Assembly: GCF_017104565.1 (NCBI RefSeq)
Contig: NZ_JAAGPD010000001.1
Coordinates: forward strand, 868,001-932,000
DNA length: 64,000 bases
Direction of reading: 5' to 3'
Origin: Paraburkholderia sp. Tr-20389
GTDB taxonomy: Bacteria; Pseudomonadota; Gammaproteobacteria; Burkholderiales; Burkholderiaceae
Every line of letters begins with the position of its first letter. Within the stretch, counting starts at the first letter, position 1. A program made the translations under genes and the position numbers. Shown piece after piece: positions 14,278 through 33,941 of this stretch. Below the pieces are notes generated by a model. It did not search any database. It saw nothing but the letters and a program-made list of their open reading frames with translations, and was not told where the DNA came from.

Positions 14278-14320
14278 GTCCATTGAAGTTAAAGTCCAAC
14301 GACTTAACCGGAACGTTAAA
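14278..14320 (-). promoter_or_regulatory. Shared 43-bp regulatory element, copy 1
   Basis: On the plus strand: GTCCATTGAA, 16 bases, TTAACC, 4 bases, CGTTAAA. It aligns without gaps to five other copies in this region. It lies just after the stop of the MFS gene and 65 bp upstream of the 76-residue gene start, in the same orientation to the downstream gene as the other copies. Probable LysR-type activator site (inference). Confidence 0.6.
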
Positions 14321-14323
14321 GCG

Positions 14324-15577
14324 CTATCGATGCAAGGTATCGCGCCGCGCCAAGGGTTTGAACAGTCGACTCCACGCGATGCTGACGAGCACCGTCGCGC
14401 ATCCGCCGAGCACCACCGAGCCGATCGCGCCGAATGCCGTCGCCGTGACGCCGGATTCGAATTCACCCAGTTGATTGCTCGCGCCGATGAAGAGCGTGTT
14501 CACGGCCGCGACCCGTCCACGCATAGGGTCCGGTGTTTCGAGCTGAATCAGCGTCTGCCGCACGATCACACTGATCGTGTCGGCGCCGCCGGAAATTGCC
14601 AGCAGCAACAGCGATAGCGGAAACGAGCGTGACACGCCGAATGCGACGATCGCGATTCCATAGACGGCAACCGCAACGAGCAGCTTCTTGCCGACACCGC
14701 TCACCATGGCACGCCGCGACAGCATCAGACCCACACACAGCGCGCCCACGGCGGGCGCGGAGCGCAGCAAGCCCAGACCTTGCGGCCCGACGTGAAGAAT
14801 CTCTTTCGCGTAGACAGGCAGCAATGCCGTCGCACCGCCGAACAGCACCGCGAACAGATCGAGCGAGATGCCGCCTAGCAGCAGCGGATTGCTCCACACG
14901 AAGCGCACGCCGGCGAGCACGGTCTCGGCCGTGACGGGCTCGCGTGGCGGCGCAACGTAGTCGTAGCGGATCAGCGCGTACATCACGGCGCTCACGCAGA
15001 ACACTGCAGCGCAGGTCAGATAGAGCGCGTTGACGCCCGTCGCAAACAAAAGGCCGCCCAGCGCCGGCCCGGCGATCACACACACCTGCTGCACCACCGT
15101 GCTGAGCGCCATCGCGCGCGCGAGCAAGGTCTGCGGAACGAGCATCGGCAGCAACGCCTGCTGCCCCGACATCTGAAACGGGCGGATCGCACCAAGCACG
15201 AGCGAGAGCCCGAGCAACAGGTCGCGTGTCACGACGTGCGTCATCGTCGATACGGCCAGCAGCGCGGCCGTGACGGCCTGGGCCGCAAGACAGACCGCAA
15301 CGATCTGTCCGCGATGCATGCGATCGGCGCAATGGCCTGCTACGAACGTCGTCGCGAGCCCCGGAATGAACTGGAAGAGTCCGACGAGACCGAGATACCA
15401 GGCACTCCCCGTCAGGTCGTACATATGCCAGCTGATCGCGAGCATCAGCATCTGCTGCGCCGTGATGGAGCCGGCGCGCGCTATCAGGAAGCGCGTCAAC
15501 GATGCATGCTGCAGCAAGGGCGCCGTGCCGGCGCGCGCGTCGATCGCCGCCGACGATGAATCGTTGAGACGCGTCAT
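14324..15577 (-). CDS. MFS transporter (MFS_3/EntS-like)
   Basis: 417 residues, about 12 transmembrane helices, inner membrane. The start at MTRLNDSSSAA is chosen because the hydrophobic core begins shortly after and the upstream extension is unlikely coding. FVAGHCADRMHRGQ matches the MFS loop 2-3 motif (G-x-x-x-D-R-x-x-R/G), and RGRVAAVNTLFIGASNQLGEFESG in the second half is typical of MFS_3 proteins. Such proteins often export small molecules. A copy of the 43-bp element sits 127 bp upstream, so it may export or import a pathway compound. Confidence 0.9.
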   Translation of the reverse strand: MTRLNDSSSAAIDARAGTAPLLQHASLTRFLIARAGSITAQQMLMLAISWHMYDLTGSAWYLGLVGLFQFIPGLATTFVAGHCADRMHRGQIVAVCLAAQAVTAALLAVSTMTHVVTRDLLLGLSLVLGAIRPFQMSGQQALLPMLVPQTLLARAMALSTVVQQVCVIAGPALGGLLFATGVNALYLTCAAVFCVSAVMYALIRYDYVAPPREPVTAETVLAGVRFVWSNPLLLGGISLDLFAVLFGGATALLPVYAKEILHVGPQGLGLLRSAPAVGALCVGLMLSRRAMVSGVGKKLLVAVAVYGIAIVAFGVSRSFPLSLLLLAISGGADTISVIVRQTLIQLETPDPMRGRVAAVNTLFIGASNQLGEFESGVTATAFGAIGSVVLGGCATVLVSIAWSRLFKPLARRDTLHR

Positions 15578-15703
15578 GACGATTGCCTGCCTTCCGCGTC
15601 GTGGACGTGCACGTGAGTGTCGAAGATTCTTGTTGGCATAAAACAGATACTGCGGAAGGCAGGCTATGAGAATGCCGCAATCATCGGCATCCGCGCACAA
15701 GCC

Positions 15704-15745
15704 GTCTATTGAATAAAAACGCGCACGTCTTAACCGTCCGGTTAT
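15704..15745 (-). promoter_or_regulatory. Shared 43-bp regulatory element, copy 2
   Basis: Plus strand: GTCTATTGAA, 16 bases, TTAACC, GTCC, GGTTAT. It lies between the end of one MFS gene and 127 bp before the start codon of the next (15577), the same distance as at 23600 and 33899. Confidence 0.7.
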
Positions 15746-15763
15746 AGCGGCGTGCAGACCGGC

Positions 15764-17116
15764 TTACGACTCGTCGTGATATCGACCCGCATCCGCTTCG
15801 AGAATGGGAGCGCTCTGCAAGGCCCGCGGCGGCACGTCGTCGGACGGCTGCTCGTGTCCGCTCATGTTGACTTTCGGCGCCCATTTCCGCTGCAACAAGA
15901 CCACGGTACTGGCGGCACCGAGCAACAGAAAACCGAAAATGGCCAGCATCGGCAGCGTGTAGCTGTGTCCCACATGAAGCAACCAGCCGGACAGACTCGC
16001 CGAAACGCCGCCCGCGAGACTCGTCGCAACCTGCTGCAAGCCCGTATTCAAACCCACCGCCTGCTTCGGAATCAGCGTGAGCTTGACGAGCGCGAGGTTG
16101 TTCGCGGTGACGAGACCCAACAGAGACAAAGAGACGACGTTCCAGAACAACGCCATCTGCGGCGAGCGTGTAAAAGCGCCGATCAGCACCGTCGTGCCGC
16201 CGATGAACCCCGCCACGATGAACGATTTGCGCACGACGACAGCGTCGTGTCCGCGTGCGATCAGGCGGTCCGCTGCGAGCCCTGCGAACGCCGCCACGAT
16301 CGCAATGCCAATGAAACTGAAGAACGTATAGAGCCCCGACTGCCGCAGCGAAAGCCCGCGCTGTTCGACCAGATACGCGGGCATCCACGTCATGCAGTAG
16401 AACGCGAAATAGCTGTAGCAGAAGTTGGTGATCAAACCGCCCCACACCACGGGACTCGACAGCAGATTTCCCAGCGGCACGGCAGCGGCTCGCCGTTTCC
16501 GTGCCGCAAGTTCAGCCTTCGACGGATAGTCGTTGTCGAGCATCAGCTGCCACGGCATCAGCCACACCAGTCCGGCGAGCCCGGTGACGATGAACATCGC
16601 TTTCCATGAACTGACGGCGATCAGCCACGCCGCGATCGGCGCCCCGAGCGCCGGCCCCATCTTCCCGCCGATCGAATAGATGCCGAGCGCTGTGCCCTTA
16701 CGCGTTTCGTCGAAGTTGTTCGCGAGATAACGATAGGTGGCGGGGACCACCACCGCTTCGGCGACGCCGATCAGCAGACGCACGAAAATCAGCGCGGACA
16801 GCGTCGTGACCATGCCCGTTGCCGCCGCCGCGAGACACCACAGCAGGAAACAGATCGAGTAAGGCCACTTCACGCCATAGCGGTCGACCAGCCAGCCCAT
16901 CGGCATCTGCAACAAACCGTAGGACCAGAACATCGCGGAGCCGAGCCAGCCGCGCTCGACGTGCGTCAGCGCGAACTCCTGCACGAAATGATGATCGGCG
17001 AGCGCAGCCGACATGCTCGTCCGGTCCACGAAGGAAATCATCAGCCCGAGCGCGAGCAGCACGAGAATGCCCCAGCGATTCTCCGCCCGCGCCGCCCTGC
17101 TTCGGGTGATCTCCAT
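15764..17116 (-). CDS. MFS transporter, anion:cation symporter (ACS) family
   Basis: 450 residues, 12 predicted transmembrane segments. Family marks: LALGLMISFVDRTSMSAALA in helix 1, WLVDRYGVKWP in the loop 2-3 motif and RLLIGVAEAVVVPATYRYL in helix 4. ACS carriers import organic anions such as hexuronates, phthalate, 4-hydroxybenzoate or tartrate with protons. GGAGACACGCAG precedes the ATG. It is the last gene of a seven-gene operon of catabolic enzymes, so it probably imports the substrate or an analogue. Confidence 0.92.
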   Translation of the reverse strand: MEITRSRAARAENRWGILVLLALGLMISFVDRTSMSAALADHHFVQEFALTHVERGWLGSAMFWSYGLLQMPMGWLVDRYGVKWPYSICFLLWCLAAAATGMVTTLSALIFVRLLIGVAEAVVVPATYRYLANNFDETRKGTALGIYSIGGKMGPALGAPIAAWLIAVSSWKAMFIVTGLAGLVWLMPWQLMLDNDYPSKAELAARKRRAAAVPLGNLLSSPVVWGGLITNFCYSYFAFYCMTWMPAYLVEQRGLSLRQSGLYTFFSFIGIAIVAAFAGLAADRLIARGHDAVVVRKSFIVAGFIGGTTVLIGAFTRSPQMALFWNVVSLSLLGLVTANNLALVKLTLIPKQAVGLNTGLQQVATSLAGGVSASLSGWLLHVGHSYTLPMLAIFGFLLLGAASTVVLLQRKWAPKVNMSGHEQPSDDVPPRALQSAPILEADAGRYHDES

Positions 17117-17167
17117 CTGCGTGTCTCCGATGATTGTTCTGTTTTCTCCGGCGCGATCTTGCGTCGC

Positions 17168-18061
17168 TCAACCGAGACTGCCCGTCACATCGTCGAACAG
17201 TTCGTCGACGGACAGGCGGCGCGGAATGATCTTCTGATCGAGCGCCCAGTCGATTGCCAGTTGCAGGCCCTTGCGATTCGCTTCCGGTCCGACCGGCGGA
17301 AAGATGGCCGGCACGCCTTCGGCGAGCGAGCGGCTCTCGACGATCATCCGGTACAGCTCGCGCACCACATCGGGCCGCTCCTTCGACAGATTCTCGTGCA
17401 CCACGAACATGTGGTTGATCGGGACCACGCCCGTGCGCGCGAACCAGTCTTTCGCGGCGGCATGCGCATCGGGGACCAGCGTGCGCACGCGTTCGTCCTT
17501 CGGCATGTCTTCGCCGAGCAGCGCGGCCGTCAATTCGCCGTCGAGCATCATCTGCGGAATCGACGAACCTGCCGGCAGACGCTGACAGTTCGACGGATCG
17601 CGGTACTCGGCAAGGTGCCCGTCGCCGAGCGTCATCCACGTGACCTTGTCGAGATCGACGCCGTATTCATGGCGCAGAATGCCCCGAATCCACAGTGCCG
17701 TGGTTTGCGTATAGGTGCGCACGCCGACCTTCTTGCCTTCGATATCCTTCGGATCGAGGTGCCCGAAGTCGAGGTTGTAGCCCGCGCAGTGATGCTGGAA
17801 GCGGCCTGAGATCGGCGTCGGCAGCAGCACATAGGGCTTGCCGTACGCCTTGGCCTGAAGGAACGTGACGATCGCCAGTTCGCCCGCGTCGAACCTGTTC
17901 TCGCGCACCATCGCCTTGAAGCCGTTGTGCGCCGGGGTCGGTCCGCAGAAGTCCAGCGTCACCACGTCGGAGCTTACGCGCCCGTCGCGCATCGCCTTCG
18001 TCACGGCGTATTCGGCCAGATTGGTGCGCAGCGTCGGCACGCCAGTCAGCGTCGTTGTCAT
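17168..18061 (-). CDS. 4,5-dihydroxyphthalate decarboxylase-like protein (binding-protein fold), second copy in operon
   Basis: 297 residues, no signal peptide, so cytoplasmic in spite of its resemblance to periplasmic binding proteins. GKKVGVRTYTQTTALWIRG, PAGSSIPQMMLDGEL and WFARTGVVPINHMFVVHENL match the Pht5-type 4,5-dihydroxyphthalate decarboxylase family, metal-independent decarboxylases built on a type-2 binding-protein scaffold. It is homologous to the protein at 22501-23472, first in the same operon. GGAGAGACAAGC precedes ATG. Two such proteins may be subunits of one enzyme or act on two substrates. Exact substrate is unknown. Confidence 0.82.
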   Translation of the reverse strand: MTTTLTGVPTLRTNLAEYAVTKAMRDGRVSSDVVTLDFCGPTPAHNGFKAMVRENRFDAGELAIVTFLQAKAYGKPYVLLPTPISGRFQHHCAGYNLDFGHLDPKDIEGKKVGVRTYTQTTALWIRGILRHEYGVDLDKVTWMTLGDGHLAEYRDPSNCQRLPAGSSIPQMMLDGELTAALLGEDMPKDERVRTLVPDAHAAAKDWFARTGVVPINHMFVVHENLSKERPDVVRELYRMIVESRSLAEGVPAIFPPVGPEANRKGLQLAIDWALDQKIIPRRLSVDELFDDVTGSLG

Positions 18062-18100
18062 GCTTGTCTCTCCGTATGCTTTTGTATCTTGTCGAACGAA

Positions 18101-19651
18101 TTACAACCGGACCTCGATCAGGCACGGACCCGGCTCGCGCGTCGAATCGACCATCGCTTTGTGGAAGTCTTCCGCCGTCTCCACCGCGATGCCCGGCACG
18201 CCCATGCTCTTCGCCATCGCCAGCCAGTCGATGCGCGGCTTGTCGATGTCGATCATCGACAGCGCGCGTTCACCGGGCGTGCCCGCGCCCATGTTGGCGT
18301 ACTCGGCCTTGAGAATCGCGTAGCTGTTGTTGGCGAAGACGATGGTCGTGACGTTCAGGTTTTCGCGCGCCTGGGTCCATAGCGATTGAATCGTGTACAT
18401 CGCGCTGCCGTCGCCGACCATGCAGAACACGCGCCGGTCGGGACACGCGAGCGCAGCGCCCGTCGCGACGGGCGTCGAATAACCGATCGAGCCGCCCATG
18501 TTGTTGATGAGGTCGTGCGGCAGCGCGCCCATCGTCAGACTCATCGACTCGCGGCCCGTCGTCAGCGATTCATCGACCACGATGCAGTGCTCGGGCAAGG
18601 CTGCCGCCAGCGCGTGGGCGATGCTCGTCGGGTTGAGTGCGCCCGTCGGCACGGCTGTCTCGATGCGCGGCTGCACGAGCGGTGCCGTGCCCGCAGCGCC
18701 GAGCGCCTGCAACAGCATGTCGAATGCGAGTTCGCTGTCTTCGTCGGACTCGACGAGCGGATGCACCAGCGTGCCCTCCGCCTTCAGCAAGCTCGGCTTG
18801 TCCGGGTACGCGAAGAACGCGACGGGCTCGGTCGTCTCGACCGTGACGATGTGCTTGTAGTCCTTCAGAAATGCCGTGGCCTGCGCGACCGCGTATGGAA
18901 TGCGCGCAATCGGCACACGCCCGGCGCCGCGCTCGATACGCGCCGTGAAGAACTGCGAGCCGAGCCGCGCACCCGTCGCCGCCGCGATGCGGCCGGCTTT
19001 GTCGAGGGCCGCGCCGCGCGTCGCCTTGTTCGCGAGGATGATCAGCGTCGGCTCGCCCGAGCGCAGCACTTGTGCGACGTGTTCGATGCGCGCGGCGCTG
19101 GGCGTCTTGCGACGCGCATCGACAGGCGGCGGCAATACGCGCGCCGCGCCCGCCTGTTGCCACGAGGTATCGCCGGGCAGGATCAAGGTGGCGATCTGCC
19201 CCGGATGCTCGCTGGCTTTGGCCACGGCCTGCGCGGTATCCCACGCGATCGTATCGGCCGATCCGGCGCGGCGCACCCAGTGGCTCAGCGGCCGCGCAAG
19301 ACCCTCGATGTCCGACGTGAGCGGCGGATCGTACTTCAGATGCGACACCGAATGCTCGCCGACCACATTGACCATGCCCGACGACGCGCGCTTCGCATTG
19401 TGAATATTCGCGAGACCGTTCGCGAGTCCCGGCCCCAGGTGCAGCAGCGTCGAGGCGGGTTTGTCCTTCATCCGGTAGAAGCCGTCGGCTGCGCCCGTCG
19501 CCACGCCTTCGAACAGGCACAGTACGCTGCGCATCTTCGGGTTGTCGCCCAGCGCGGCGAGGAAATGCATCTCCGACGTGCCGGGATTCGCAAAGCAGAT
19601 GTCGACGCCCTGCTCGACCAGCGTCGCGACGAGACTTTCGGCGCCGTTCAT
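18101..19651 (-). CDS. Thiamine-diphosphate-dependent enzyme (benzoylformate decarboxylase / acetolactate synthase family)
   Basis: 516 residues, cytoplasmic. The ThDP-activating Glu lies in CLFEGVATGAADGFYRM. The ThDP/Mg motif begins GDGSAMYTIQSLW and ends NNSYAIL, the usual GDG-N(about 26)-NN arrangement. Length and domain order fit decarboxylases of 2-oxo acids more than anabolic acetolactate synthases. Its ATG overlaps the stop of the aldolase gene by one base (TGATG), indicating translational coupling. In context it would decarboxylate or ligate a 2-oxo acid made by the pathway (inference). Confidence 0.85.
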   Translation of the reverse strand: MNGAESLVATLVEQGVDICFANPGTSEMHFLAALGDNPKMRSVLCLFEGVATGAADGFYRMKDKPASTLLHLGPGLANGLANIHNAKRASSGMVNVVGEHSVSHLKYDPPLTSDIEGLARPLSHWVRRAGSADTIAWDTAQAVAKASEHPGQIATLILPGDTSWQQAGAARVLPPPVDARRKTPSAARIEHVAQVLRSGEPTLIILANKATRGAALDKAGRIAAATGARLGSQFFTARIERGAGRVPIARIPYAVAQATAFLKDYKHIVTVETTEPVAFFAYPDKPSLLKAEGTLVHPLVESDEDSELAFDMLLQALGAAGTAPLVQPRIETAVPTGALNPTSIAHALAAALPEHCIVVDESLTTGRESMSLTMGALPHDLINNMGGSIGYSTPVATGAALACPDRRVFCMVGDGSAMYTIQSLWTQARENLNVTTIVFANNSYAILKAEYANMGAGTPGERALSMIDIDKPRIDWLAMAKSMGVPGIAVETAEDFHKAMVDSTREPGPCLIEVRL

Positions 19652-20508
19652 CAGTAGCCCGCCATGTCGCGCGCGAGACCGACCACGCCGTAGGTGCGTT
19701 GCGGCGCCGACATCAGATAGCGATAACCCTCTTCCATCAGTCGTCGATGGTTCTTTGCCGTGACGTGCGGATGACCGACGACCACGTTGTGCTTCTTGCA
19801 GGTCTCGACGATCCGGCGCATCGCATCGAGGACTTCAGGGTGTTCGTACTGGCGCGGAAAGCCCAGTTCCTGGCTGAGGTCGCCTTCGCCGATCAGGATG
19901 AAGCCGATGCCGGGTACATTAGCGAGGATGTCGTCGAGGTTCTCGATTGCCTGCGTGCTCTCGCACATCAGGCCGACGAGAATCTCGCCCTGCGGCGCGA
20001 GCGGCCACACATCGGCCTTTTCGTAATACTCCTGCATCGACAGGCCCCAGTAGCGCGCCGCATTCGCGGGACCATCGCCGCGCACACCCTTCGGCTCGTA
20101 CAGCGGCGCACTCTTCGGCCGCGCATAACGGCACGACGCGACGGCGTTATAGGCCTGCTCGACGGTCGCGACGTGCGGCCAGATCACGCCATACGCGCCG
20201 CGATCGAGCACCTGCTTCGCGAAGCTCTGGTTCATCTCGACACCGTTGGCGGGAATGCGCGCGATCGGCGTCACCTTCGTTTCCACCGATGCCGTCTCGA
20301 CGATCTGCTTGCGGCTGAGCATGTATTGCAGCGCGTCGCCGAGTGCGCTCACGTCGTACGGGTTGTGCTCCATCTCGAAGACGATGCCGTCATACGGCGA
20401 ATCGCTCATTTCGATGGCAGTCTGCTTGTCGAGCTTGGCGAACGCAGCATGCGCGGCCTTGCCCGATTCGAACGCGCGGATGATGCTGTTGAGGCGTATG
20501 TTGGACAT
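19651..20508 (-). CDS. HpcH/HpaI-family aldolase
   Basis: 285 residues, (beta/alpha)8 barrel. VFEMEHNPYDVSALGDALQ, GVIWPHVATVEQAYNAVAS and GLMCESTQAIENLDDI followed by ILIGEGDLSQELG give the metal-binding Glu and Asp and the phosphate/carboxylate loop of this family. Members cleave 4-hydroxy-2-oxo acids to pyruvate plus an aldehyde or oxo acid using a divalent metal. In this operon it follows a LigJ-type hydratase, whose product, 4-carboxy-4-hydroxy-2-oxoadipate, is normally split by the unrelated LigK, so it could be an analogous aldolase. Its exact substrate is not determined by the sequence. Confidence 0.85.
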   Translation of the reverse strand: MSNIRLNSIIRAFESGKAAHAAFAKLDKQTAIEMSDSPYDGIVFEMEHNPYDVSALGDALQYMLSRKQIVETASVETKVTPIARIPANGVEMNQSFAKQVLDRGAYGVIWPHVATVEQAYNAVASCRYARPKSAPLYEPKGVRGDGPANAARYWGLSMQEYYEKADVWPLAPQGEILVGLMCESTQAIENLDDILANVPGIGFILIGEGDLSQELGFPRQYEHPEVLDAMRRIVETCKKHNVVVGHPHVTAKNHRRLMEEGYRYLMSAPQRTYGVVGLARDMAGY

Positions 20509-20586: not shown

Positions 20587-21432
20587 TCAGCTCAGCGCGG
20601 GATACAGCTTCTGTGCGGTCTTGCCGAAGATCCACGCGCGGTCTTCTTCGCCGAGACAGGCGACCCCTTCTTCGGCTGTCGCAAGAATCTCCTCGAGCGT
20701 TCCCGTCGAGGTCGGAAAGTTCGAACCCCAGGCCATGCGCTGGGCGCCGAAGGCTTCGACGACGCGCGGGAAGAAGGTCTCTGCACTCGCCTTCTCCTTC
20801 TTCACGTCGCCGAAGATGCGCGGCGTGAGCTTGAGATAGATGTTCGGCAGATCGGCCAGTGCGAACAGGCCGGCGGCGTTCGCATACGGCGGCCCGTCGA
20901 GCACGTCGGGACGGCCGAGGTGATCGAGGATGATGTTCACACCCGGAAACTTCTCCGCCAGCATGCCCACCTGGGGCAAGCCGATCGGCCCGGTCTGGAT
21001 GCACATCGGCAGCCTCAGTTCGGCCAGCATCTCCCATGCCTTGAATGACCTGGGATTGTCGAGTTCGCTCGGATCGAAGTCCTTGGTCGAGCCGCCCGTG
21101 AAGATGCGCAGCCCGGCAAGACCCTTGTCCGCCCAGCCTTTGATCACGGCCGGCACGTCGTCGGCCAGCATATCGACCGAACCCACCGCCACGAGACGGT
21201 CCTTGTACTGGTTGCAGCCGTCCACGACATAGCTGTTGTCGAAGCCATAGGTCGTCGACGAGTGCACGACGGCGGCCTTCGCGACGCCCGCTGCGTCCAT
21301 TGCCTCGATCAGCGCTTCGACGGTATTGGGCCGCTCCTGAGACCAGTCCGAGCGCTTGCCGAACAGCGGCGCGGACGGGTAGCGCTTCTCATCGTCCGAG
21401 ATGATGTGAGGATGAATGTCGATGAAGTTCAT
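20587..21432 (-). CDS. Amidohydrolase-family lactone hydrolase-like protein (LigI-like), copy A
   Basis: 281 residues from MNFIDIHPHIIS, where the family's metal-binding H-x-H lies (HPH). Amidohydrolase_2 barrel. GGSTKDFDPSELD, ILDHLGRPD and a late WGSNFPTS are family landmarks. LigI-type 2-pyrone-4,6-dicarboxylate hydrolases have Asp at the last position (GTDWP); here it is Asn. It has a paralogue at 28169-29023 with long matching blocks (SSTTYG, EMDxAGVAKAA). Located next to a LigJ-like gene, it probably opens a lactone (inference). Confidence 0.83.
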   Translation of the reverse strand: MNFIDIHPHIISDDEKRYPSAPLFGKRSDWSQERPNTVEALIEAMDAAGVAKAAVVHSSTTYGFDNSYVVDGCNQYKDRLVAVGSVDMLADDVPAVIKGWADKGLAGLRIFTGGSTKDFDPSELDNPRSFKAWEMLAELRLPMCIQTGPIGLPQVGMLAEKFPGVNIILDHLGRPDVLDGPPYANAAGLFALADLPNIYLKLTPRIFGDVKKEKASAETFFPRVVEAFGAQRMAWGSNFPTSTGTLEEILATAEEGVACLGEEDRAWIFGKTAQKLYPALS

Positions 21433-22483: not shown

Positions 22484-22500
22484 TTTTCTTCCGTCCTGAT

Positions 22501-25483: not shown

Positions 25484-26014
25484 TCAGCCCTTCGGCTGCA
25501 GCGCGTGCAAGGTCATGCCGAGCGAGATCGACGTGAAATAACCCACCGTGACGAGCAGTTCGGCGATCACGGCGCGTCCGAGCCCGGCGTCGTAACGTGC
25601 AAAGCGCGCGTCGTCGATCGCGCCGCCCGCGAGAAGGTCGCAGACCGCGTCGCAGATCAAACCGAAACGATCATCACCGGCTTCGGGTCGCCGCTTCTCC
25701 AGGATTGCAGCCACCACGACCTCTGGAACGCCGGATTTCAACGCATGGCGGCGATGATTGGCGATCACGTAAGGCGCATTCCAGAACACGGCCGTCGAGA
25801 GAATGGCGACTTCGCTTTCCGCCTCGCTGAGCACGGGCGATCGATCGACATGCGTGCCGATGATCTCCATGCCTTCGGCGAGATTCGGGTTGTGCAGCCA
25901 GATATTGAACGGCGTCGGGATGCGCCCTCGCCCTTCGCCGAGCCGTGAGATGACTTTCTTCTGAGCGTCGGTGGCGTTGTCCGCGTCGATGCGTTCGAGT
26001 CGGTTGTCCGTCAT
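25484..26014 (-). CDS. Carboxymuconolactone decarboxylase-family (AhpD-like) protein
   Basis: 176 residues, all-helical. RIPTPFNIWLHNPNLAEG, SEVAILSTAVFWNAPYVIANHRRHALKSGVPEVVVAAI and an alpha-helical C-terminus match the CMD/AhpD superfamily. The AhpD Cys-x-x-Cys pair is not present: Phe-Trp-Asn precedes the conserved His region, so peroxidase activity is unlikely, and a decarboxylase or isomerase role in the pathway is possible. It is the last enzyme gene of the operon running from 30138, 51 bases after the transporter gene. Confidence 0.82.
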   Translation of the reverse strand: MTDNRLERIDADNATDAQKKVISRLGEGRGRIPTPFNIWLHNPNLAEGMEIIGTHVDRSPVLSEAESEVAILSTAVFWNAPYVIANHRRHALKSGVPEVVVAAILEKRRPEAGDDRFGLICDAVCDLLAGGAIDDARFARYDAGLGRAVIAELLVTVGYFTSISLGMTLHALQPKG

Positions 26015-26065: not shown

Positions 26066-28072
26066 TCACAGCAGGCTGCTCGGCCACGGAATATGGATGA
26101 TCTGATCGAACACGCCATAGATCAGCGCCGTCACACAGGCCGCGAGAATCAGACTGAGCCGCCAGGACTCGCGCCCTTCGATCCGCATAAACGCGACGAT
26201 CACGATCGGCACCGTCGGGATCATGCCGATCAGCGACATGCAGACCAGGAACCCGACGAACCAGCCAAAGAACTTCGCTGCCCGCAGCAGCACGACCTTG
26301 TTCGGCAGCTTTTCGCCGTGGTCGCTCGATACATCCATGTGGATGCCGCCACCGGCGTTCGCCATGCCTGCTTGCGCCGGAATGAAAAACACCTTGTAGG
26401 CGAGACTGCCCGTTCCGGCGATCACGAGAATGCTCGCGATGACCGTCGGCCCGATTCGCGCCATCAGGAGCCAGCTCTGCGCCGTCAGCAGCATGTAGAG
26501 TCCGATGCCGATGAAGAACACATAGACGAGGTCTTCGAGCTTGAACGCGATCTTTCCGCTCGGCCGCATCCGCGCGAGGCCGCCGCTGCGCAGTGCGCTG
26601 AACAAGGGCTTGAAGAAGACCAGTGCCGCGAGAATCAGAAGAACCATCACGACCGGACGCGTGACCCACTCCGTCCCGTAGCGCACGTACGAGATCGACA
26701 TGTAGCGCTCCATCAGCACGCCGAGCACGAGACCGAGAATCAGCGGCGGACGCGCCCATTTGAGGCGCTTCATGGTCCAGCCGATCAGACCGGCGATCAG
26801 CAGCACGAACAGGTCGCCCCAGCTACGCGAGCCCTGAAAGGCGCCGACGTAGATGATGGGCATGATGACGGGCAGGATCAGCGTGTAGCGCAGCGTCGAA
26901 ATCTTCGCGAACTGCCCGCTGAGCAGAAAGCACAGTCCTGCGCCGAAGATGTTCGCCAGTGCGATCGACCAGACCATCGAATAGGTGAAGTCGAGATGCT
27001 TGGTCAGCATGTCGGGCCCTGGGATGAAGCCGTGCACCATCATCGCGCCGAGCAGGATCGCCTGAGCGGCGCCGCCCGGCACGCCGAACGACAGCATCGG
27101 CACGAGGCTGCCGCCTTCGCGTGCATTGTTGGCCGCTTCAGGCGCAATCACGCCGCGCACATCGCCCGTGGTGAAGGTCTGCTTCGCGCCCTTCGAGGTT
27201 TGCAGCGCGTGGCCGTAGGCGATCCAGTCCGTCACCGCGCCGGTGATACCGGGCACTGCACCGAGGATTGCGCCGAGCCCGCCGCAGCGAAGCACCAGGA
27301 ACCAGTTACGCAAGCTGTCGGCCACGCCCTGTTGCATGCCCTGGCGCGAAGTGAACTGCACATTCTCCGCGATGGCCGTGCGCCGGATCGCAAGCTCGCA
27401 CAGTTCCGGCAATGCAAAGATGCCGAGGATGATCGGCACCAGCGGAATGCCGTCCTGCAGATAAAGAATGTCCCCCGTCCAGCGCATTTGCCCCGTAGCG
27501 ACGTTGGTGCCGACCATGCCGACCAGAATGCCGAAACAGGCCGCGACCACGCCCCTCAGCGGCGCGTTGCCCGACAGGGCCGACACCATCGAGACGCCGA
27601 AGATCGTGAGCCCCAGCATTTCCGGCGTGCCGATCGACAGCACGAAAGGCCGTACCAGCGGCAGCGAAACAGCAAGAATGACCGCGCCGATCAGGCCGCC
27701 GAGCAGTGAAGACATGTAGCACGCACTCAATGCGCGCGACGCTTCTCCGCGCTTCGTCATCGGCAGCCCGTCGAGTACGGTGGCCTGCGACGCCGCGTGT
27801 CCCGGCACGCCGAAGAGCACGGCGGGAATGACGTCCGAAGTCGTAATGACGGACGCCATGCCGAGCAGCATCGCAAACGCCGCATACGGGTCCATCGTGT
27901 AAGTGAACGGCACCAGCAGCGCGAAGCCCGTCAGCCCTCCGATTCCCGGCAGCAACCCGATCGACAGTCCGACGACGACGCCGAACACGAGGAAGATCAG
28001 ACGGTTGAACTGCAAGAGCGTCGATAGCGCATGGCCTGCTGCCAATAGCGTTGCGTCGTTGAAAAATTCCAT
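26066..28072 (-). CDS. Tripartite tricarboxylate transporter permease, TctA-TctB fusion
   Basis: 668 residues, inner membrane. Residues 1-500 are TctA: GLLPGIGGLTGFALLVPFT, GVPGHAASQATVLDG and a second repeat GAVPGITGAVTDW / SFGVPGGAAQAILLGAM. TctA alone is about 500 residues. The last about 160 residues (from KLEDLVYVFFIG) have the four-helix pattern and the ending YGVFDQIIHIPWPSSLL typical of the small subunit TctB. No separate tctB exists nearby, so the two subunits are fused. With the TctC-type protein at 29098-30138 it forms a complete importer for a di- or tricarboxylate. Confidence 0.92.
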   Translation of the reverse strand: MEFFNDATLLAAGHALSTLLQFNRLIFLVFGVVVGLSIGLLPGIGGLTGFALLVPFTYTMDPYAAFAMLLGMASVITTSDVIPAVLFGVPGHAASQATVLDGLPMTKRGEASRALSACYMSSLLGGLIGAVILAVSLPLVRPFVLSIGTPEMLGLTIFGVSMVSALSGNAPLRGVVAACFGILVGMVGTNVATGQMRWTGDILYLQDGIPLVPIILGIFALPELCELAIRRTAIAENVQFTSRQGMQQGVADSLRNWFLVLRCGGLGAILGAVPGITGAVTDWIAYGHALQTSKGAKQTFTTGDVRGVIAPEAANNAREGGSLVPMLSFGVPGGAAQAILLGAMMVHGFIPGPDMLTKHLDFTYSMVWSIALANIFGAGLCFLLSGQFAKISTLRYTLILPVIMPIIYVGAFQGSRSWGDLFVLLIAGLIGWTMKRLKWARPPLILGLVLGVLMERYMSISYVRYGTEWVTRPVVMVLLILAALVFFKPLFSALRSGGLARMRPSGKIAFKLEDLVYVFFIGIGLYMLLTAQSWLLMARIGPTVIASILVIAGTGSLAYKVFFIPAQAGMANAGGGIHMDVSSDHGEKLPNKVVLLRAAKFFGWFVGFLVCMSLIGMIPTVPIVIVAFMRIEGRESWRLSLILAACVTALIYGVFDQIIHIPWPSSLL

Positions 28073-28168: not shown

Positions 28169-29023
28169 TCAGTCGGCAAGCGACGGGTACAGCACCTTCG
28201 CCGTACGTCCCCAGACCCACGCGCGTTCGTCGTCGCTGAGACCTGCGAAACACGCATGTCCCTGATCGATCAGCTTCTTCAACGGTCCCGCGGAAGCCGG
28301 ATAATTCGAGCCGAAGGCCAGGTGATCGGCGCCGAACACCTTCGCCAGTTTCTGGAAGAATGCCTCTGCTCCACCAGGCGCTGCCTGCGCGAGATCGAAG
28401 GTTCGCGGCGTGATCTTCATGTAGATGTTGTCGTACTTCGCCAGATCGAACAGTGCAGCACAACGTGCATACGGCGGGCCATCCTCGAGATCGGGACGCG
28501 CACAATGATCGAGCGCGATCTTCACCGTGGGGAAACGTTCGGCGAGTTCGGCGACCATCGACAAGCCATCCGGCGTCGTCTGCACTGCCATCGTCATGCC
28601 GATCTCTGCGCAGCGCTCCCAGATCGGGAATGTCGCCGGATTGACCAGCCAGCTTCCGTCGCTCTGATGCGTCGCCCCGCCCGTGAAGAGCCGGATACCG
28701 CCCATGCCGTTGGCCAGCCAGTAGTCGAAGGTCTTCAGCGCATCGGGTGCGAGCAGGTCGAACGAATAGACACCCGTGAAGCGCTTCGGAAATTGCGCCA
28801 CGCTGTCGGCCACATACGCGTTGTTGTGCCCGTAGGTCGTCGACGAATGCACGATCGCGGCTTTTGCCACGCCGGCCTCGTCCATCTCGGCGATCATCTG
28901 TTCGAACGTGACGGGGCGCGTGGCCGACCACTTCGAGCGATGTCCGTGTTGCGGAGCGACCGGATAGCGATCCGTATCCGCCGAAATGATATGCGGGTGA
29001 ATGTCGATGATTTCAGGTGTCAT
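28169..29023 (-). CDS. Amidohydrolase-family lactone hydrolase-like protein (LigI-like), copy B
   Basis: 284 residues from MTPEIIDIHPHIIS, with AAAAGG shortly upstream; an earlier ATG (29053) has poor spacing. H-x-H metal motif (HPH), FTGGATHQSDGSW, ALDHCARPD and a final FGSNYPASAG with Asn where LigI has Asp. It is clearly a paralogue of 20587-21432 but diverged. It is placed between the Tct binding protein and the TctAB permease in a transport/catabolic operon. Likely reaction: hydrolysis of a lactone or a related C-C/C-O bond of the imported acid (inference). Confidence 0.82.
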   Translation of the reverse strand: MTPEIIDIHPHIISADTDRYPVAPQHGHRSKWSATRPVTFEQMIAEMDEAGVAKAAIVHSSTTYGHNNAYVADSVAQFPKRFTGVYSFDLLAPDALKTFDYWLANGMGGIRLFTGGATHQSDGSWLVNPATFPIWERCAEIGMTMAVQTTPDGLSMVAELAERFPTVKIALDHCARPDLEDGPPYARCAALFDLAKYDNIYMKITPRTFDLAQAAPGGAEAFFQKLAKVFGADHLAFGSNYPASAGPLKKLIDQGHACFAGLSDDERAWVWGRTAKVLYPSLAD

Positions 29024-29097: not shown

Positions 29098-30138
29098 TCA
29101 ACGCGAACTGAAGATGAGCTTGCGTGCGCTCTCTAGCTGCGGTTCGGGCGTCGCGTACAGCTTGCTGACGATCTGCTCCACCGCGCTGCCGTCGATCGGA
29201 TCGATGGGAAAACCCGAAGTTTTCATGGCCTCGATGAACGAGGGATCCGCAATCGTCTTTGCAAACGCATCGCGCAGTGCGTTCAGACGATCCTGAGGCA
29301 CGTCCTTCGGCACGGCGATCGGACGCCCCGCGTTGAACGGCAGCAGGAACAGGTTGAACAGCGCCTTCACATTGGGATCCGTGATGTACGCGCTCAGGTT
29401 CGGAATATCGGAGAAAGGCGCCGGACTGTTCCAGCCAAGATGCAACAACACCTTCATCTTGCCGTCGGCAAGCATGCGCACGGGTTCGCCCTGTTGCAGA
29501 CCATCGATGGTCGACGCCCAGCCGTCGACTTCGCCGCGCTGCATCGCCAGATACACTTCGCCGCGGCCCGTGTATCCCGGCACGATGCTCATCTTCGCGC
29601 CGAGGTATTCGTCGAGCAGCGCGGGCAACGTTCTGTCCTCGTTAGCGAAGCCTGTCGCGCCGATGTACATCTTCTTTTTCATCAGGTCGTCAGCGGTGGT
29701 GACGCCGGAACGCGTCATCGACACCAGGCAGTATTCGACCTTGTTGAGACTGCCGAGCCATCTCACCTGGCGGGGATCGAATCTGTTCTGCCGCGGATCG
29801 AGCAGAGGGATATAGAGGTTGTTGCGCTGAAGAAAGCCGATCACGGTGCCGTCGTTGGGCTGTCTGGACTGAAGCGACGCCGCCGCGACCATCCCGCCGG
29901 CGCCCACCACGTTCATCACCACCGCACGCGGTTTGCCGGGAATGTAGTTGACGAAGAAGCGCGCGAACTGACGCGCGATGATGTCAGTCGGCGTGCCTGC
30001 ATCGGCGCTGACAACCAGCGTCAGCGTCTTGCCGTGATAGAAGTTTTCGACCGACTGGCCAAAAGCGGGTCCATTCATCGCCATCGCGGCAATACCCAGC
30101 AGCGCCGCGCAAGCGCGAATTGCGGTCCTGAACTTCAT
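29098..30138 (-). CDS. Tripartite tricarboxylate transporter binding protein (TctC/Bug family)
   Basis: 346 residues with a Sec signal peptide (MKFRTAIRACAALLGIAAMA, cleavage near AFGQ), so periplasmic. Bug-family marks: GKTLTLVVSADAGTPTDIIARQFARFF, NVVGAGGMVAAASLQ and RGEVDGWASTIDGL. It captures a carboxylate for the TctAB fusion. It is the first gene of the operon 30138-25484, with a copy of the 43-bp element 139 bp upstream. Its leader region and first codons resemble those of the porin gene at 33771, pointing to a duplicated promoter and signal sequence. Confidence 0.92.
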   Translation of the reverse strand: MKFRTAIRACAALLGIAAMAMNGPAFGQSVENFYHGKTLTLVVSADAGTPTDIIARQFARFFVNYIPGKPRAVVMNVVGAGGMVAAASLQSRQPNDGTVIGFLQRNNLYIPLLDPRQNRFDPRQVRWLGSLNKVEYCLVSMTRSGVTTADDLMKKKMYIGATGFANEDRTLPALLDEYLGAKMSIVPGYTGRGEVYLAMQRGEVDGWASTIDGLQQGEPVRMLADGKMKVLLHLGWNSPAPFSDIPNLSAYITDPNVKALFNLFLLPFNAGRPIAVPKDVPQDRLNALRDAFAKTIADPSFIEAMKTSGFPIDPIDGSAVEQIVSKLYATPEPQLESARKLIFSSR

Positions 30139-30276
30139 GGTCGTCTCTGTCTCCGGTAATAGTCCGCGATTCGCATTCGTGGCCAGGCCGACACATTGCA
30201 GGCCGGATGCGGATCGCGTTGTCTACGTTCGTTTATCGAGTGAACGTAGACAAATTTTGCCAGCACGACGACGTGG

Positions 30277-30319
30277 GTCAATTGAGAAAAACGGCGAGGG
30301 GTTTGAGCAAATGGTTAAG
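30277..30319 (-). promoter_or_regulatory. Shared 43-bp regulatory element, copy 4
   Basis: Plus strand: GTCAATTGAG, 16 bases, TTGAGC, AAAT, GGTTAAG. It lies 139 bp upstream of the Tct binding-protein start. AAATTTTGCCAGC lies 13 bases from its gene-proximal end and recurs identically placed at copy 6. Confidence 0.75.
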
Positions 30320-30369
30320 GCCCGCGCAGAACGGCGGGCGGCAGGCAGGTTCGTGTGAGCGGGCGACGC

Positions 30370-31320
30370 TTAACGCGCGGCCCGGCTCTTTTCGGCGAGA
30401 CGTTGAGCCGCCTCTTCCAGACACGAGACCATCAGTTGCGCACTGGGCGTCAGGCCACGATTGCGATTCCACAGCACGCCCGTCGGCCGCAGCAGACGGG
30501 GCAGGCTCAACGGCAGCGTGTGAAGCGGTTGTGCGGGATCGTTAGCGGGCGTGTCGGCCATCACGGCAATGAAGTCCGATACCTGCAGATGCGCGCGCAC
30601 GACGTGAATCGAGAGCGTTTCGATGTAGTTGCTGGTCAACGGCACGTCATGCGCTTCGAGCGCACGTTCGAGCGGATCGCGCAGTATCGATCCCGGCGGC
30701 GGCAATATCCACGGGTACGGTTGCAGGTCCGACCACTTCAGTGTCTTCCTGCGGGCCAGCGGATGCTGACGGCCCGTCACCAGTGTCACCGGATCTTCAA
30801 GCAGTTCCTTCTCCTCGAAACTGCCGAGCGTATCCGGAGGCGGCAGACGGCCCACCACGAGGTCGAGCCGCCCCTGCCAGAGTTCGGGCAAGAGCGAGGC
30901 CGTCGTCCCTTCGATCACCACCACATTGGTTCCGGGCGAACGCTGCTTCAGAAGGCCCAGCGCTTGCGGCACCAGCACGGACGCCGATGCGGGCAGCATG
31001 CCGATGTGGACTTTGCCCTCGGTGCCCGAACTCAGCGCTTTCAATTCGTCGCGTGCCTGATGAAGGATCGTCAGCATCGACCGTGCGTGGCGAATCAGGC
31101 AATCGCCGTACTGCGTGGGCACGAGGCCCTGAGCCGTGCGTGAAAACAGCGTGAGCCCGAGTCCTTTTTCAAGCTCGGCCAGCGACTTCGACACGGCAGG
31201 CACGGTCACATGCGTGACGTCGGCGACCTGGGTCAGGTTGCGGTACGTGTCGATTGCCACGATCAGGTGCAAATGGCGCGCCTTCAGATTGATCTGCAGG
31301 TACCAGTCAAGCTCCGACAC
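30370..31320 (-). CDS. LysR-type regulator, paralogue B
   Basis: 316 residues, same family and nearly the same sequence as 24416-25423, without that protein's C-terminal tail. Winged HTH about 15-75, effector domain about 95-300. It is divergent from the Tat-exported binding-protein gene (31493), and the 172-base gap contains copy 5 of the 43-bp element, the classical arrangement in which a LysR protein controls its neighbour. It is the best candidate for the regulator that reads all six copies (inference). Confidence 0.93.
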   Translation of the reverse strand: MSELDWYLQINLKARHLHLIVAIDTYRNLTQVADVTHVTVPAVSKSLAELEKGLGLTLFSRTAQGLVPTQYGDCLIRHARSMLTILHQARDELKALSSGTEGKVHIGMLPASASVLVPQALGLLKQRSPGTNVVVIEGTTASLLPELWQGRLDLVVGRLPPPDTLGSFEEKELLEDPVTLVTGRQHPLARRKTLKWSDLQPYPWILPPPGSILRDPLERALEAHDVPLTSNYIETLSIHVVRAHLQVSDFIAVMADTPANDPAQPLHTLPLSLPRLLRPTGVLWNRNRGLTPSAQLMVSCLEEAAQRLAEKSRAAR

Positions 31321-31332
31321 GTCGTGTGCCCC

Positions 31333-31376
31333 CTTTTACCAACTCGTTAAGTCTGAGGCCATTTTACTCAATTGCC
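31333..31376 (+). promoter_or_regulatory. Shared 43-bp regulatory element, copy 5
   Basis: Inverted relative to the other copies, matching its plus-strand gene. Plus strand reads TTTACC, AACT, CGTTAA, 16 bases, CTCAATTGCC. It is 117 bp upstream of the ATG at 31493 and 13 bp from the divergent LysR start. GCTGGCA follows 15 bases later, as at copies 4 and 6. Confidence 0.75.
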
Positions 31377-31492
31377 CGCAGTTGCTGTTCGCTGGCAGGA
31401 TCGCGATGCGCCCGATGGCGCTTTTTTGCATTGGCCGCAAGCTACACGATGAACGACAACTCGTCGGCACGACCGGCGTATGGAGACAGCCG

Positions 31493-32512
31493 ATGACCCA
31501 CACCTTAAGCCGCCGCCGCTTTCTGCGCAGCGCCGGCCTGCTCGGCCTGAGCGTTGCCGCTGGCGGGCTCGCCGTGCCGTATTTCGCGAGGAGCGCGACG
31601 ACCCAGCTGCGCATCGTCAGCAACCCGGGACTGGAGAATGCCACGCTGAACGCGTTGATGGACGAGATGGGTTATTTCAGGCAGTTCGGCGTCAATGCGA
31701 TGATCGTGCAGATCCCCGGCGCAACGGGCCCTTTCGATGCCATCTCCGCGGGCGCGGCAGATGTCTGCATGGTATCCGGCTACAACATGGTGTTGTCACG
31801 CATCGCGCAAGGCGCCAGGGTCAAGATCGTCGGCGCCGGGATGAAGAAATGCGCGCTAACGGTTTTCACGCGGCCCGCCGATAGGGTCACGACGCTCGCC
31901 GATCTAAAGGGCAAGACGGTCGCGGTCGGCCCGACCTTGGGCTTGCTGCATACGCTGATGCTGCAGTTGATGAAGGAAAAGGGGATCGACGCTTCGCAGG
32001 TCAATTTCGTCGATAAAGGCAGCAACGAACAATGCTACGACGCGGTTATCAGGGGCGAAGCGGACGCGTGCTGCGCGAGCATCTCGCATCTGAACGTTTC
32101 TGGCGGGCTCGTGGCGATCAGCGATGCCAACATGTGGCAAGCGCTGCCGCGATGCATTTTCCAGACCGCCTATGCGTCCGATACTGCATTGCAGGAAAAG
32201 CACGAGGGATTGGTCGCCGTCATGGCCGCCTATGGCGCGCTCTACGATTTCCTGATGTCGCCCGCATCGCGCGATGCGTTCTTCGAAGCACGCAAACACG
32301 CGCAGAAAAAATTCGACAAGCAATCGGCGCAGGCCATCTGGGAGTTCAATGAATCGCAACGGCCCTACTCGAAGGATCTCTCGCTGACAGGCGACGATAT
32401 CGGCTATCTGCAAGACATGTTCATCGGCCTCGGCAGCCTGAAGCGGAAACAACCCTTCGCGGAAGTGGCCGACATGTCGGCGGCAAAAGCCGCGACGAAG
32501 CTGCTCGGCTGA
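31493..32512 (+). CDS. Tat-exported NitT/TauT-type substrate-binding protein
   Basis: 339 residues. The N-terminus MTHTLSRRRFLRSAGLLGL is a twin-arginine signal, so it is exported folded. The mature part is an ABC-type aromatic sulfonate/nitrate-like binding protein: DEMGYFRQFGVNAMIVQIPG, LKGKTVAVGPTLGLLHTLML and GEADACCASISHLNV. The start is the ATG preceding the Tat motif, although the frame opens far upstream. No ABC permease or ATPase is in the window, so it is an orphan or works with a distant transporter. It probably senses or captures the regulon's substrate. It ends before a bidirectional terminator. Confidence 0.88.
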   Translation: MTHTLSRRRFLRSAGLLGLSVAAGGLAVPYFARSATTQLRIVSNPGLENATLNALMDEMGYFRQFGVNAMIVQIPGATGPFDAISAGAADVCMVSGYNMVLSRIAQGARVKIVGAGMKKCALTVFTRPADRVTTLADLKGKTVAVGPTLGLLHTLMLQLMKEKGIDASQVNFVDKGSNEQCYDAVIRGEADACCASISHLNVSGGLVAISDANMWQALPRCIFQTAYASDTALQEKHEGLVAVMAAYGALYDFLMSPASRDAFFEARKHAQKKFDKQSAQAIWEFNESQRPYSKDLSLTGDDIGYLQDMFIGLGSLKRKQPFAEVADMSAAKAATKLLG

Positions 32513-32547
32513 ACGGGTCACGCGGTTCAGTCTTTGCGATGACAAAA

Positions 32548-32583
32548 GCCCCGCAGGCCGGATCGATGTCCGGCCTGCGGGGC
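32548..32583. terminator. Bidirectional hairpin terminator
   Basis: A perfect 15-bp GC-rich stem (GCCCCGCAGGCCGGA and its complement) with a TCGATG loop lies between convergent binding-protein and porin genes. On the minus strand it is followed by TTTTGTC, so it ends the porin transcript well. Confidence 0.85.
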
Positions 32584-32625
32584 ATGCTTCATTTGGGTGC
32601 TGCGATGCGTGCGTCCTGCATCATG

Positions 32626-33771
32626 TCAGAACGTGTGCCGGATACCCGCGATGATTGATATCTGCGAACTGCCGGCCGGAGGCGTGGGAACAGGCGTGAT
32701 GGTGGTCGCTGCGAGCGCGAGATTGCCGTAGTTGTGGATATGCTCGCCCGTCAGGTAAAGAAACGTGCGCTTCGACAGCAGATATTCACCGCGCAATACG
32801 AGCACCAGCGCCTTGTTGGGCGAATGGTCGTACTTGAGTTGCGCCACCATGCCGTCGACATACACGAACGGTGTAACGGGTACGGTGCCCGTCACCCAGA
32901 AGAGGTTGCTCTTCGGCGTCTTGAGGCCTTCGTCATCGCGCCTGATCCAGCCTACGCCGAACTTGGCTTGACTGATCTTGAAGTAGCCACCCAACGTGAA
33001 CCGGCTGTCGGTGAGATTCGGTGAAGTGAGGCCGCCGAACGTTCCTGACGTGCCGCCGTAGTTGCGTTCATAAGAGGTCGCCACGCCCCAGGTGTGTCCA
33101 TCGTACTTACCCATGACCGAATATTCCCGGCATTCGTTCGACGGTGTCGTCTGTCCCGGGCAATTGGCGGCTGCGGCGGTCGCCGGATTGCCGTTCACGG
33201 CATCGCGACCGAAGCTGTAGTTCACCCCGCCTTCGAATCCGCCGAGAAAATAGCGGTAGCTCACGGAATTGTCGGCGCGTGCATTGGCGATGCCGTTATC
33301 CAGCGTGGTAAGACCTTGCGCGCCCGTTCCGAACGGATTGATGAACGAGGTCGCATAGAAGCGCATCGTGTATTGACGCCCGAACGTCAGCCGGCCGAAC
33401 TTCCCATCGAGACCGACGTACGATTGCCGCCCGAACAGACGGCCACCTTGCCGCGACGTTCCATTGCTGGGCATGAAGCCGCCTTGCAGATCGAAGATCG
33501 CCTTCGTCCCGCCGCCGAGATCTTCGCTGCCGCGAATCCCGAAGTACGACGTTGCCGTTCCGTCTCCCATGCGATAAGCGTTGGTCGTGGCGTTCTTTCC
33601 CTTGGCCACGTTGTTGACGTATTCCAATCCCTGATCGATCAAGCCATAGATGGTCACCATACTGGTACCCGTGGCTTTACCATCGGCCGCGCCTTCGTCT
33701 TCAGCCTGCGCCCAGGTCGGCACAATGCTCATCAATGCCGCGCAAGCACATATTGCGGTCCTGTATTTCAT
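32626..33771 (-). CDS. Outer-membrane porin (Gram-negative porin_4 family)
   Basis: 381 residues. Signal peptide MKYRTAICACAALMSIVPTWAQA, then the porin_4 start SMVTIYGLIDQGLEYVNN, beta-strand pairs such as SYFGIRGSEDLGGGTKAIFDL and LTFGRQYT, and the terminal Phe (GIRHTF) needed for outer-membrane assembly. Trimeric beta-barrel general or specific diffusion channel. The frame extends upstream, but the signal peptide fixes the start. Copy 6 of the 43-bp element is 128 bp upstream, so it is probably a substrate-specific entry channel of this regulon. Confidence 0.95.
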   Translation of the reverse strand: MKYRTAICACAALMSIVPTWAQAEDEGAADGKATGTSMVTIYGLIDQGLEYVNNVAKGKNATTNAYRMGDGTATSYFGIRGSEDLGGGTKAIFDLQGGFMPSNGTSRQGGRLFGRQSYVGLDGKFGRLTFGRQYTMRFYATSFINPFGTGAQGLTTLDNGIANARADNSVSYRYFLGGFEGGVNYSFGRDAVNGNPATAAAANCPGQTTPSNECREYSVMGKYDGHTWGVATSYERNYGGTSGTFGGLTSPNLTDSRFTLGGYFKISQAKFGVGWIRRDDEGLKTPKSNLFWVTGTVPVTPFVYVDGMVAQLKYDHSPNKALVLVLRGEYLLSKRTFLYLTGEHIHNYGNLALAATTITPVPTPPAGSSQISIIAGIRHTF

Positions 33772-33898
33772 GATTGATGCCGTCTCCTTGAATGGGTCAC
33801 AATGTGCCAGATCGCGAACTGGCGTCGCTATCGGGACTTGGACCATGCTTTTTCGTTTGTTTGTAACGCACTGAAATTTTGCCAGCGCGTGACGGCAG

Positions 33899-33941
33899 GT
33901 CTATTGAGAAAAACAGCCTCGGCATTGAGCGAATGGTTAAG
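33899..33941 (-). promoter_or_regulatory. Shared 43-bp regulatory element, copy 6
   Basis: Plus strand: GTCTATTGAG, 16 bases, TTGAGC, GAAT, GGTTAAG. It lies 128 bp upstream of the porin start. It and copy 4 are the closest pair and share flanking sequence. Confidence 0.75.

Follow-up and report, generated by a model that had tools for sequence, protein, structure and literature searches.

The six copies of a 42-bp sequence element found within 20 kb of a Paraburkholderia genome raise the question of what this element does and which regulator it serves. The window analysed here is a stretch of 64,000 nucleotides from Paraburkholderia sp. Tr-20389 (contig 19, positions 868001–932000, of a genome of 8,997,065 bases in 129 contigs), and the copies lie in a cluster of transport and catabolic genes that includes two LysR-type regulator genes, lysR1 and lysR2. 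With a probability that we put at roughly 87%, the element combines an operator with a core promoter and serves these paralogous activators. What the computation shows directly is the element itself, its restriction to the cluster, its spacing and its link to one clade of LysR proteins.

Six copies of a composite element

The element consists of a dyad, TTWACC-N4-GSTYAA, followed after 17 bases by TCAAT-N-GAC (equivalently, the dyad, 16 bases and YTCAATRGAC), and spans 42 bp. The copies in the window are as follows:

14278–14319, minus strand: composite site 1, with the dyad at the high-coordinate end and TCAATGGAC at the low end; −10-like GATGAT at 14254–14259, predicted start at about 14247
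15704–15745, minus strand: composite site 2, before the major facilitator superfamily (MFS) transporter gene a, with the dyad ATAACC-N4-GGTTAA; −10-like GATGAT at 15680–15685
23600–23641, minus strand: composite site 3, before the decarboxylase operon; −10-like GATCAT at 23576–23581
30277–30318, minus strand: composite site 4, before the tctC operon; −35 TTGACC, −10-like AAAATT at 30253–30258
31335–31376, plus strand: composite site 5, between lysR2 and the divergent gene of a binding protein with a twin-arginine (Tat) signal; dyad edge 14 bases from the lysR2 start
33899–33940, minus strand: composite site 6, before the porin gene; −10-like AAAATT at 33875–33880

All six copies listed in the initial annotation were located, five on the minus strand and the inverted one on the plus strand, and both the identical spacing of dyad, 16 bases and YTCAATRGAC and the preserved orientation relative to the gene were found in every copy. 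The dyad, described there as close to TTAACC-N4-GGTTAA, is present in a slightly looser form, whose right half comes in two flavours, GGTTAA and GCTCAA; the 31335 copy has the ending TTGCC. Measured against 20 specified positions, the six copies have 0, 0, 1, 1, 1 and 3 mismatches.

The distances to start codons, previously given as 117–139 bp for five copies and 65 bp for the sixth, correspond to 116–138 and 64 intervening bases: 126 for the MFS gene, 127 for the decarboxylase gene (to its TTG start; 73 to an upstream ATG), 138 for tctC, 116 for the Tat-signal protein gene, 127 for the porin gene and 64 for site 1. The MFS, decarboxylase, Tct, Tat-signal protein and porin genes had been correctly named as those preceded by a copy, while the aldehyde dehydrogenase gene, also named, comes second: the start 64 bases from site 1 belongs to a conserved 76-amino-acid open reading frame (ORF) at 13983–14213 (minus strand), and the aldehyde dehydrogenase gene is the next one, its start at 13893 being 384 bases from the site.

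A scan of the whole 9.0-Mb genome with the pattern GTC-N-ATTGA-N17-TTRASC-N4-GGTTAA, allowing up to three mismatches, returned exactly six matches, all inside the cluster (two with 0, three with 1 and one with 3 mismatches), while the reversed pattern, used as a control in the same scan, gave three matches on the forward and none on the reverse strand. The frequent occurrence at unrelated places in the genome against which the initial annotation had warned was thus not seen. No match with up to three mismatches appeared in 200 first-order shuffles of the window, and matches with exactly four appeared at 0.07 per window.

Anatomy and spacing of the element

A sequence logo was constructed in gene orientation from 85 distinct sites pooled from related genomes (effective number 58). 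Columns 1–16 hold TTWACC-N4-GSTYAA, columns 24–25 GC, columns 28–33 a T-rich run, columns 34–38 TCAAT, column 39 any base and columns 40–42 GAC. Columns 38–43 read TNGACS, a putative −35 box with which the second part of the element coincides, and a −10-like hexamer follows at columns 61–66, 17 bases past the −35 box, with A at position 2 in 75% and T at position 6 in 81%. Outside the element and the promoter the information content of the 85 sites is about zero. The conservation of the dyad and TCAAT columns, with T2 at 99% and A15 at 98% (T-N12-A), is inflated because the sites were selected with a pattern holding most of those letters; the GC, T-run and −10 columns lie outside this pattern. 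T at column 3, which gives T-N11-A, occurs in 33% of weighted sites. If transcription starts about 7 bases past the −10 hexamer, the dyad centre would lie at about −64.5, the geometry of a LysR activator.

The spacing also emerges when it is not imposed. In the window and loci L031–L092, many of whose sites are orthologous, so that the events are not independent, 95 of 114 distinct TCAATNGAC occurrences have the dyad at offset 17 and one at 16, with no other offset from 5 to 39 represented; starting from the 148 dyads, TCAAT lies at 17 in 118, at 12 in three, at 21 in one and is missing in 26. The right half-site T[TC]AA (columns 13–16) is repeated as TCAA (columns 34–37) 21 bp, or two helical turns, downstream. 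The LysR-like layout of a dyad and a second site recognised in the initial annotation is retained, and its spacing of about three turns is refined: the half-site repeat spans two turns, the distance between the centres is about 29 bp, and the second site falls on the −35 box.

Co-occurrence with a clade of LysR regulators

Two LysR-type regulators are encoded in the cluster:

30370–31320, minus strand: lysR2, divergent from a target gene; Pfam domains HTH_1 and LysR_substrate; best NCBIfam model TIGR02424 (PcaQ), 203 bits against a cut-off of 303.8
24416–25423, minus strand: lysR1, paralogue of lysR2 (90% identical) and last gene of the tctC run; HTH_1 and LysR_substrate; TIGR02424, 201 bits

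When 145 genomes of the genus were scanned with up to two mismatches, 22 contained at least one match, 16 of them with 2 to 7 matches and six with one. The reversed-pattern control matched 55 of the 145 genomes, once in each and twice in one, so an isolated match carries little weight and the signal is in clusters of matches. Homologues of LysR2 with at least 48% identity are present in 17 genomes; 22 genomes pass the E-value limit, five of these with 40–41% homologues only. At least two matches were found in 16 of the 17 genomes carrying this LysR clade versus none of the 128 lacking it (Fisher p about 2e-20, uncorrected for relatedness), and at least one match in 17 of 17 versus five of 128 (G030, G063, G073, G074 and G133; Fisher p about 4e-18, likewise uncorrected). 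The TctAB permease occurs in 15 of the 145 genomes, all of them among these 17. On a tree of 75 rows, the cluster LysR proteins and their relatives of 47–55% identity form a clade of 57 rows (100/98), and PcaQ falls far outside it on a long branch.

The enzyme genes behave differently from the regulator. A homologue (at least 78%) of the second 4,5-dihydroxyphthalate decarboxylase-like protein of the cluster, DHPD2, is found in 42 of the 145 genomes, namely the 17 with the clade LysR and 25 others. None of these 25 has a site with up to two mismatches beside the DHPD2 gene, and only G063 has a match at all, on another contig. A site tied to the enzyme genes whatever their regulator was therefore rejected, and the site follows the regulator, not the enzyme.

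In L057, L060 and L075, a further LysR gene of about 48% identity adjoins the site-bearing decarboxylase gene, which suggests that diverged regulators share the operator.

Target genes in related loci

Orthologues of the cluster genes were examined in 43 related loci, including the window, for a correctly oriented site with up to three mismatches within 320 bases upstream (720 for aldehyde dehydrogenase). Such a site precedes all eight aldehyde dehydrogenase orthologues, 29 of 32 DHPD2 orthologues, 22 of 25 for TctC (25 of 25 with up to four mismatches), 22 of 24 for the porin (24 of 24 with up to four) and 18 of 26 for the Tat-signal protein (22 of 26 with up to four), as against one of 265 for eleven other cluster genes pooled. 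MFS a has the site in only 4 of 18 cases, so its site is recent or often lost; in other loci the gene usually lies directly behind MFS b and may be read from that operon. A lack of conservation before the orthologous genes, which the initial annotation had held to speak against a regulon, was accordingly not seen for five targets, and applies to the MFS site at 15704.

Some related clusters are rearranged (L057, L060, L075) or split (L089/L090), and others occur in Caballeronia, Trinickia, a Janthinobacterium assembly, Pseudomonas daroniae and one gammaproteobacterium. Of 26 named loci found, 17 were scanned, and each of these has at least one site with up to three mismatches. Confinement of the motif to the cluster, conservation of orientation and targets across genera, and association with the LysR clade but not with the enzymes all argue for the single LysR-controlled regulon that had been proposed from the window.

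In L059 (G039), where a LysR gene of about 52% identity adjoins, the genes behind two sites are a different one for a TctC-type protein and a lactonase/decarboxylase set (about 50% identity); the same operator is here placed on a partly different gene set. L070 (8121–8559, G133) carries a lone site before short porin pieces only, in a genome without the clade LysR, and looks like the remnant of a lost cluster. In L088 (1064–3632, G100), the porin gene match is in two pieces about 1.2 kb apart behind a site with one mismatch, as if the porin gene had been broken by an insertion.

Relation to PcaQ, LigR and other LysR systems

The motif had been regarded as unfamiliar in the initial annotation; its type is in fact known, and it resembles the recognition sites of the LysR activator PcaQ. 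ATAACC-N4-GGTTAA is a form of the PcaQ site of Sinorhizobium meliloti; this string was matched in no paper retrieved by our literature search. The half-sites TAAC/GTTA of the PcaQ regulon for protocatechuate in S. meliloti, Agrobacterium tumefaciens and Burkholderia xenovorans are near-identical to those of the dyad, and PcaQ, like the regulator proposed here, is an activator of uptake and catabolic operons for aromatic acids. The S. meliloti site is ATA-n10-TAT, which has the same length as the dyad described here and is likewise of the T-N12-A type (PMC5002191). The Burkholderiales site, given as ATAAC-N5-GTTAT, is one base shorter, with N5 where all six copies have N6 (PMC3572157). The element further differs from a PcaQ site by the additional TCAAT part and by its target genes.

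Given this similarity to published sites, and since PcaQ is the nearest NCBIfam model for both LysR1 and LysR2, the sites could be bound by the true PcaQ or by another PcaQ-like LysR protein encoded elsewhere, which would make the cluster part of the protocatechuate regulon. We consider this unlikely. The true PcaQ of this genome, encoded on contig 18, scores 373 bits, whereas LysR1 and LysR2 stay below the cut-off; its own site, ATAACGATCCGTTAT, is the Burkholderiales N5 form, one base shorter than the dyad and without TCAAT 17 bases on, and its locus has no match to the element with up to three mismatches. Twelve further PcaQ-like LysR loci, of 20 family matches in the genome, were examined and have no such dyad. 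Motif clusters go with the cluster LysR clade, far from PcaQ in the tree, though PcaQ stands there on a long branch. No intradiol dioxygenase was found among the cluster ORFs scanned, and the targets are not the pca genes of protocatechuate 3,4-cleavage. Membership in the PcaQ system was therefore rejected on the score, on N6 instead of N5 and on the targets.

LigR of Novosphingobium and Sphingobium is a LysR activator of protocatechuate 4,5-cleavage genes that is bound at about −51 to −85 and has the conserved sequence TT-N-GC-N6-TTAT (PMC12710314). Like the regulator proposed here, it is a LysR protein that activates genes for aromatic 4,5-cleavage; it differs in its site sequence and in serving two flanking operons instead of six promoters. 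LigR membership was rejected as well, TT-N-GC-N6-TTAT being absent from the 85-site logo by inspection, with no dedicated search run.

The closest general model is the LysR promoter with a recognition site at about −65 and an activation site at about −35, for which OccR and BenM are examples; the element has the same site distance and position and, for one site, the same divergent arrangement of regulator and target. LysR1 and LysR2 both have the two LysR domains, the predicted dyad centre is at about −64.5, and TCAAT-N-GAC stands at offset 17 near −35. The element would therefore work like a LysR two-site activator promoter and, by the tests run, belongs to neither the PcaQ nor the LigR system. 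A literature search for the motif or the cluster found no description, most subscription papers being outside its coverage, so that absence is unproven. For the LysR activation site in general, a 2017 paper states that no conserved sequence motif had been identified (PMC5603801), whereas the corresponding part of the element is nearly invariant; an activation site described there as lacking a consensus thus seems to have one here. This is the most unusual trait of what is otherwise a well-known kind of bacterial gene control.

Other explanations and points against the proposed operator

Another local regulator could bind the element, such as the AraC-family protein encoded at 35509–36492, which adjoins the cluster. 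This is very improbable: the only match that a tblastn search found in related loci is partial, at 39%, and confined to one region (L015, L034, L086), on which ground the AraC neighbour was rejected as the regulator, and the dyad and the −65 geometry fit LysR, whose clade the motif clusters accompany. Just as improbable is an element that is mainly an unusual promoter for an alternative sigma factor and whose dyad is incidental. Its second part does overlap the −35 box and the −10-like hexamer is fixed 17 bp downstream; nevertheless, the dyad reappears at one offset in 95 of 114 cases when the second part alone serves as the anchor, and the element, found nowhere else in the genome, accompanies the LysR clade. 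A dispersed repeat, such as a miniature inverted-repeat transposable element (MITE) or a repetitive extragenic palindrome (REP), lying before genes by chance would explain six similar copies within 20 kb, but it was rejected because conservation stops at the promoter, the flanks share almost no information and the genome has no further copies, and all six keep their orientation to genes.

Besides the inflated logo percentages, the control matches and the sparse MFS a site, several observations weigh against a LysR operator-promoter. The promoter and the −65 position are read from sequence, and we infer binding, activation, start sites, operon structure, inducer and substrate. The −10 hexamer of the 31335 copy is poor, and the strict T-N11-A box varies among sites. 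LysR1 and LysR2 are not separable as the regulator. In G003, the single site with up to two mismatches is on another contig than the clade LysR, beside which lies a site with three mismatches. In L068 and L069 the clade LysR is present but sites are lacking, and no recognised cluster gene stands behind the sites in L062, L064 and L071. The Massilia locus L055 has the genes and one site, with no clade LysR in the stretch examined.

In that locus (Massilia niastensis), an unrelated LysR gene (28%) stands amid the gene set and the single site lies before the porin gene; a replacement of the regulator is possible.

A proposed mechanism

In the operator-promoter that we propose, a LysR dimer would occupy the dyad, as the recognition site, at about −65, and in the presence of inducer the second dimer of the tetramer would contact the TCAAT part overlapping the −35 box, helping RNA polymerase to initiate at a weak promoter. 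The fixed spacing would follow from the need for both contacts and the −35 box to share one face of the DNA. The six promoters could thereby coordinate entry through the outer membrane (porin), periplasmic capture (TctC and the Tat-exported binding protein), uptake across the inner membrane (Tct and MFS) and catabolism (decarboxylase-like proteins, amidohydrolases, LigJ-type hydratase, aldolase and aldehyde dehydrogenase). LysR2 is proposed as the main sensor; through the site at 31335, which lysR2 shares with the divergent Tat-signal protein gene, it would control its own expression, a classical layout for autocontrol. Since lysR1 closes the tctC run behind site 30277, it could amplify itself, adding positive feedback on its own expression.

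A wider picture remains tentative and somewhat doubtful, namely that of a self-contained, horizontally moving regulon, in which a LysR clade whose activation site is sequence-specific (TCAAT fused to the −35 box, fixed at 17 bp) acts through a single 42-bp operator-promoter, with two co-occurring paralogues possibly in mixed tetramers, on partly different gene sets across Beta- and Gammaproteobacteria. The element itself travels with its regulator genes through related soil bacteria. For the 20-kb catabolic island, which occurs in Paraburkholderia, Caballeronia and elsewhere, a regulator, an operator and promoter positions can now be proposed, and a matrix built from the sites can be used to find targets in other genomes. 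The roughly 85 sites of one geometry form an unusually clean natural data set on the contact of a LysR tetramer with recognition and activation sites, and joint control of six promoters would point to one shared substrate.

Genes of the cluster and the predicted pathway

The remaining genes of the cluster are the following:

12289–13893, minus strand: aldehyde dehydrogenase, start chosen by homology
13983–14213, minus strand: conserved 76-amino-acid ORF, first gene behind site 1, also in eight other related loci
14324–15577, minus strand: MFS transporter a
15764–17116, minus strand: MFS transporter b, last gene of the presumed decarboxylase operon
17168–18061, minus strand: 4,5-dihydroxyphthalate decarboxylase-like protein 1 (PDB 9jp7, E 1.8e-19)
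18101–19651, minus strand: thiamine-diphosphate enzyme, PRK07586 family (741 bits, cut-off 363)
19651–20508, minus strand: HpcH/HpaI-type aldolase
20587–21432, minus strand: amidohydrolase, remote relative of LigI (2-pyrone-4,6-dicarboxylate hydrolase) (2ffi, E 2.1e-7)
21458–22483, minus strand: 4-oxalomesaconate hydratase, LigJ-like (2gwg, E 1.6e-145; 6dxq, 4.3e-145)
22501–23472, minus strand: 4,5-dihydroxyphthalate decarboxylase-like protein 2 (DHPD2), first of its operon (9jp7, E 1.4e-44); TTG start, upstream ATG extending it to 23526
25484–26014, minus strand: unassigned 176-amino-acid protein in the tctC run, no Pfam match; possibly AhpD/carboxymuconolactone decarboxylase-like
26066–28072, minus strand: TctA permease with a C-terminal extension, probably a fused TctB
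28169–29023, minus strand: amidohydrolase of the same Pfam family as 20587–21432, no PDB match at 0.001
29098–30138, minus strand: TctC-type binding protein, first gene behind site 4
31493–32512, plus strand: NMT1-type binding protein with the twin-arginine signal RRRFLR, first gene behind site 5
32626–33771, minus strand: porin, first gene behind site 6

The LigJ-type 4-oxalomesaconate hydratase is a firm prediction. As the theme of the pathway we favour, with some reserve, the degradation of an aromatic or pyrone polycarboxylic acid (di- or tricarboxylic) via 4-oxalomesaconate. Of the five LigB-family ring-cleavage matches in the genome, one falls within a second copy of six of the catabolic genes; the cluster itself contains none. 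This second copy (L112 6388–13522; G000 contig 32, 205500–225000) is without sites and is 64–88% identical to the first; it comprises two decarboxylase-like proteins, LigJ, the LigI-like protein, MFS and HpcH, with the LigB-family match lying within.

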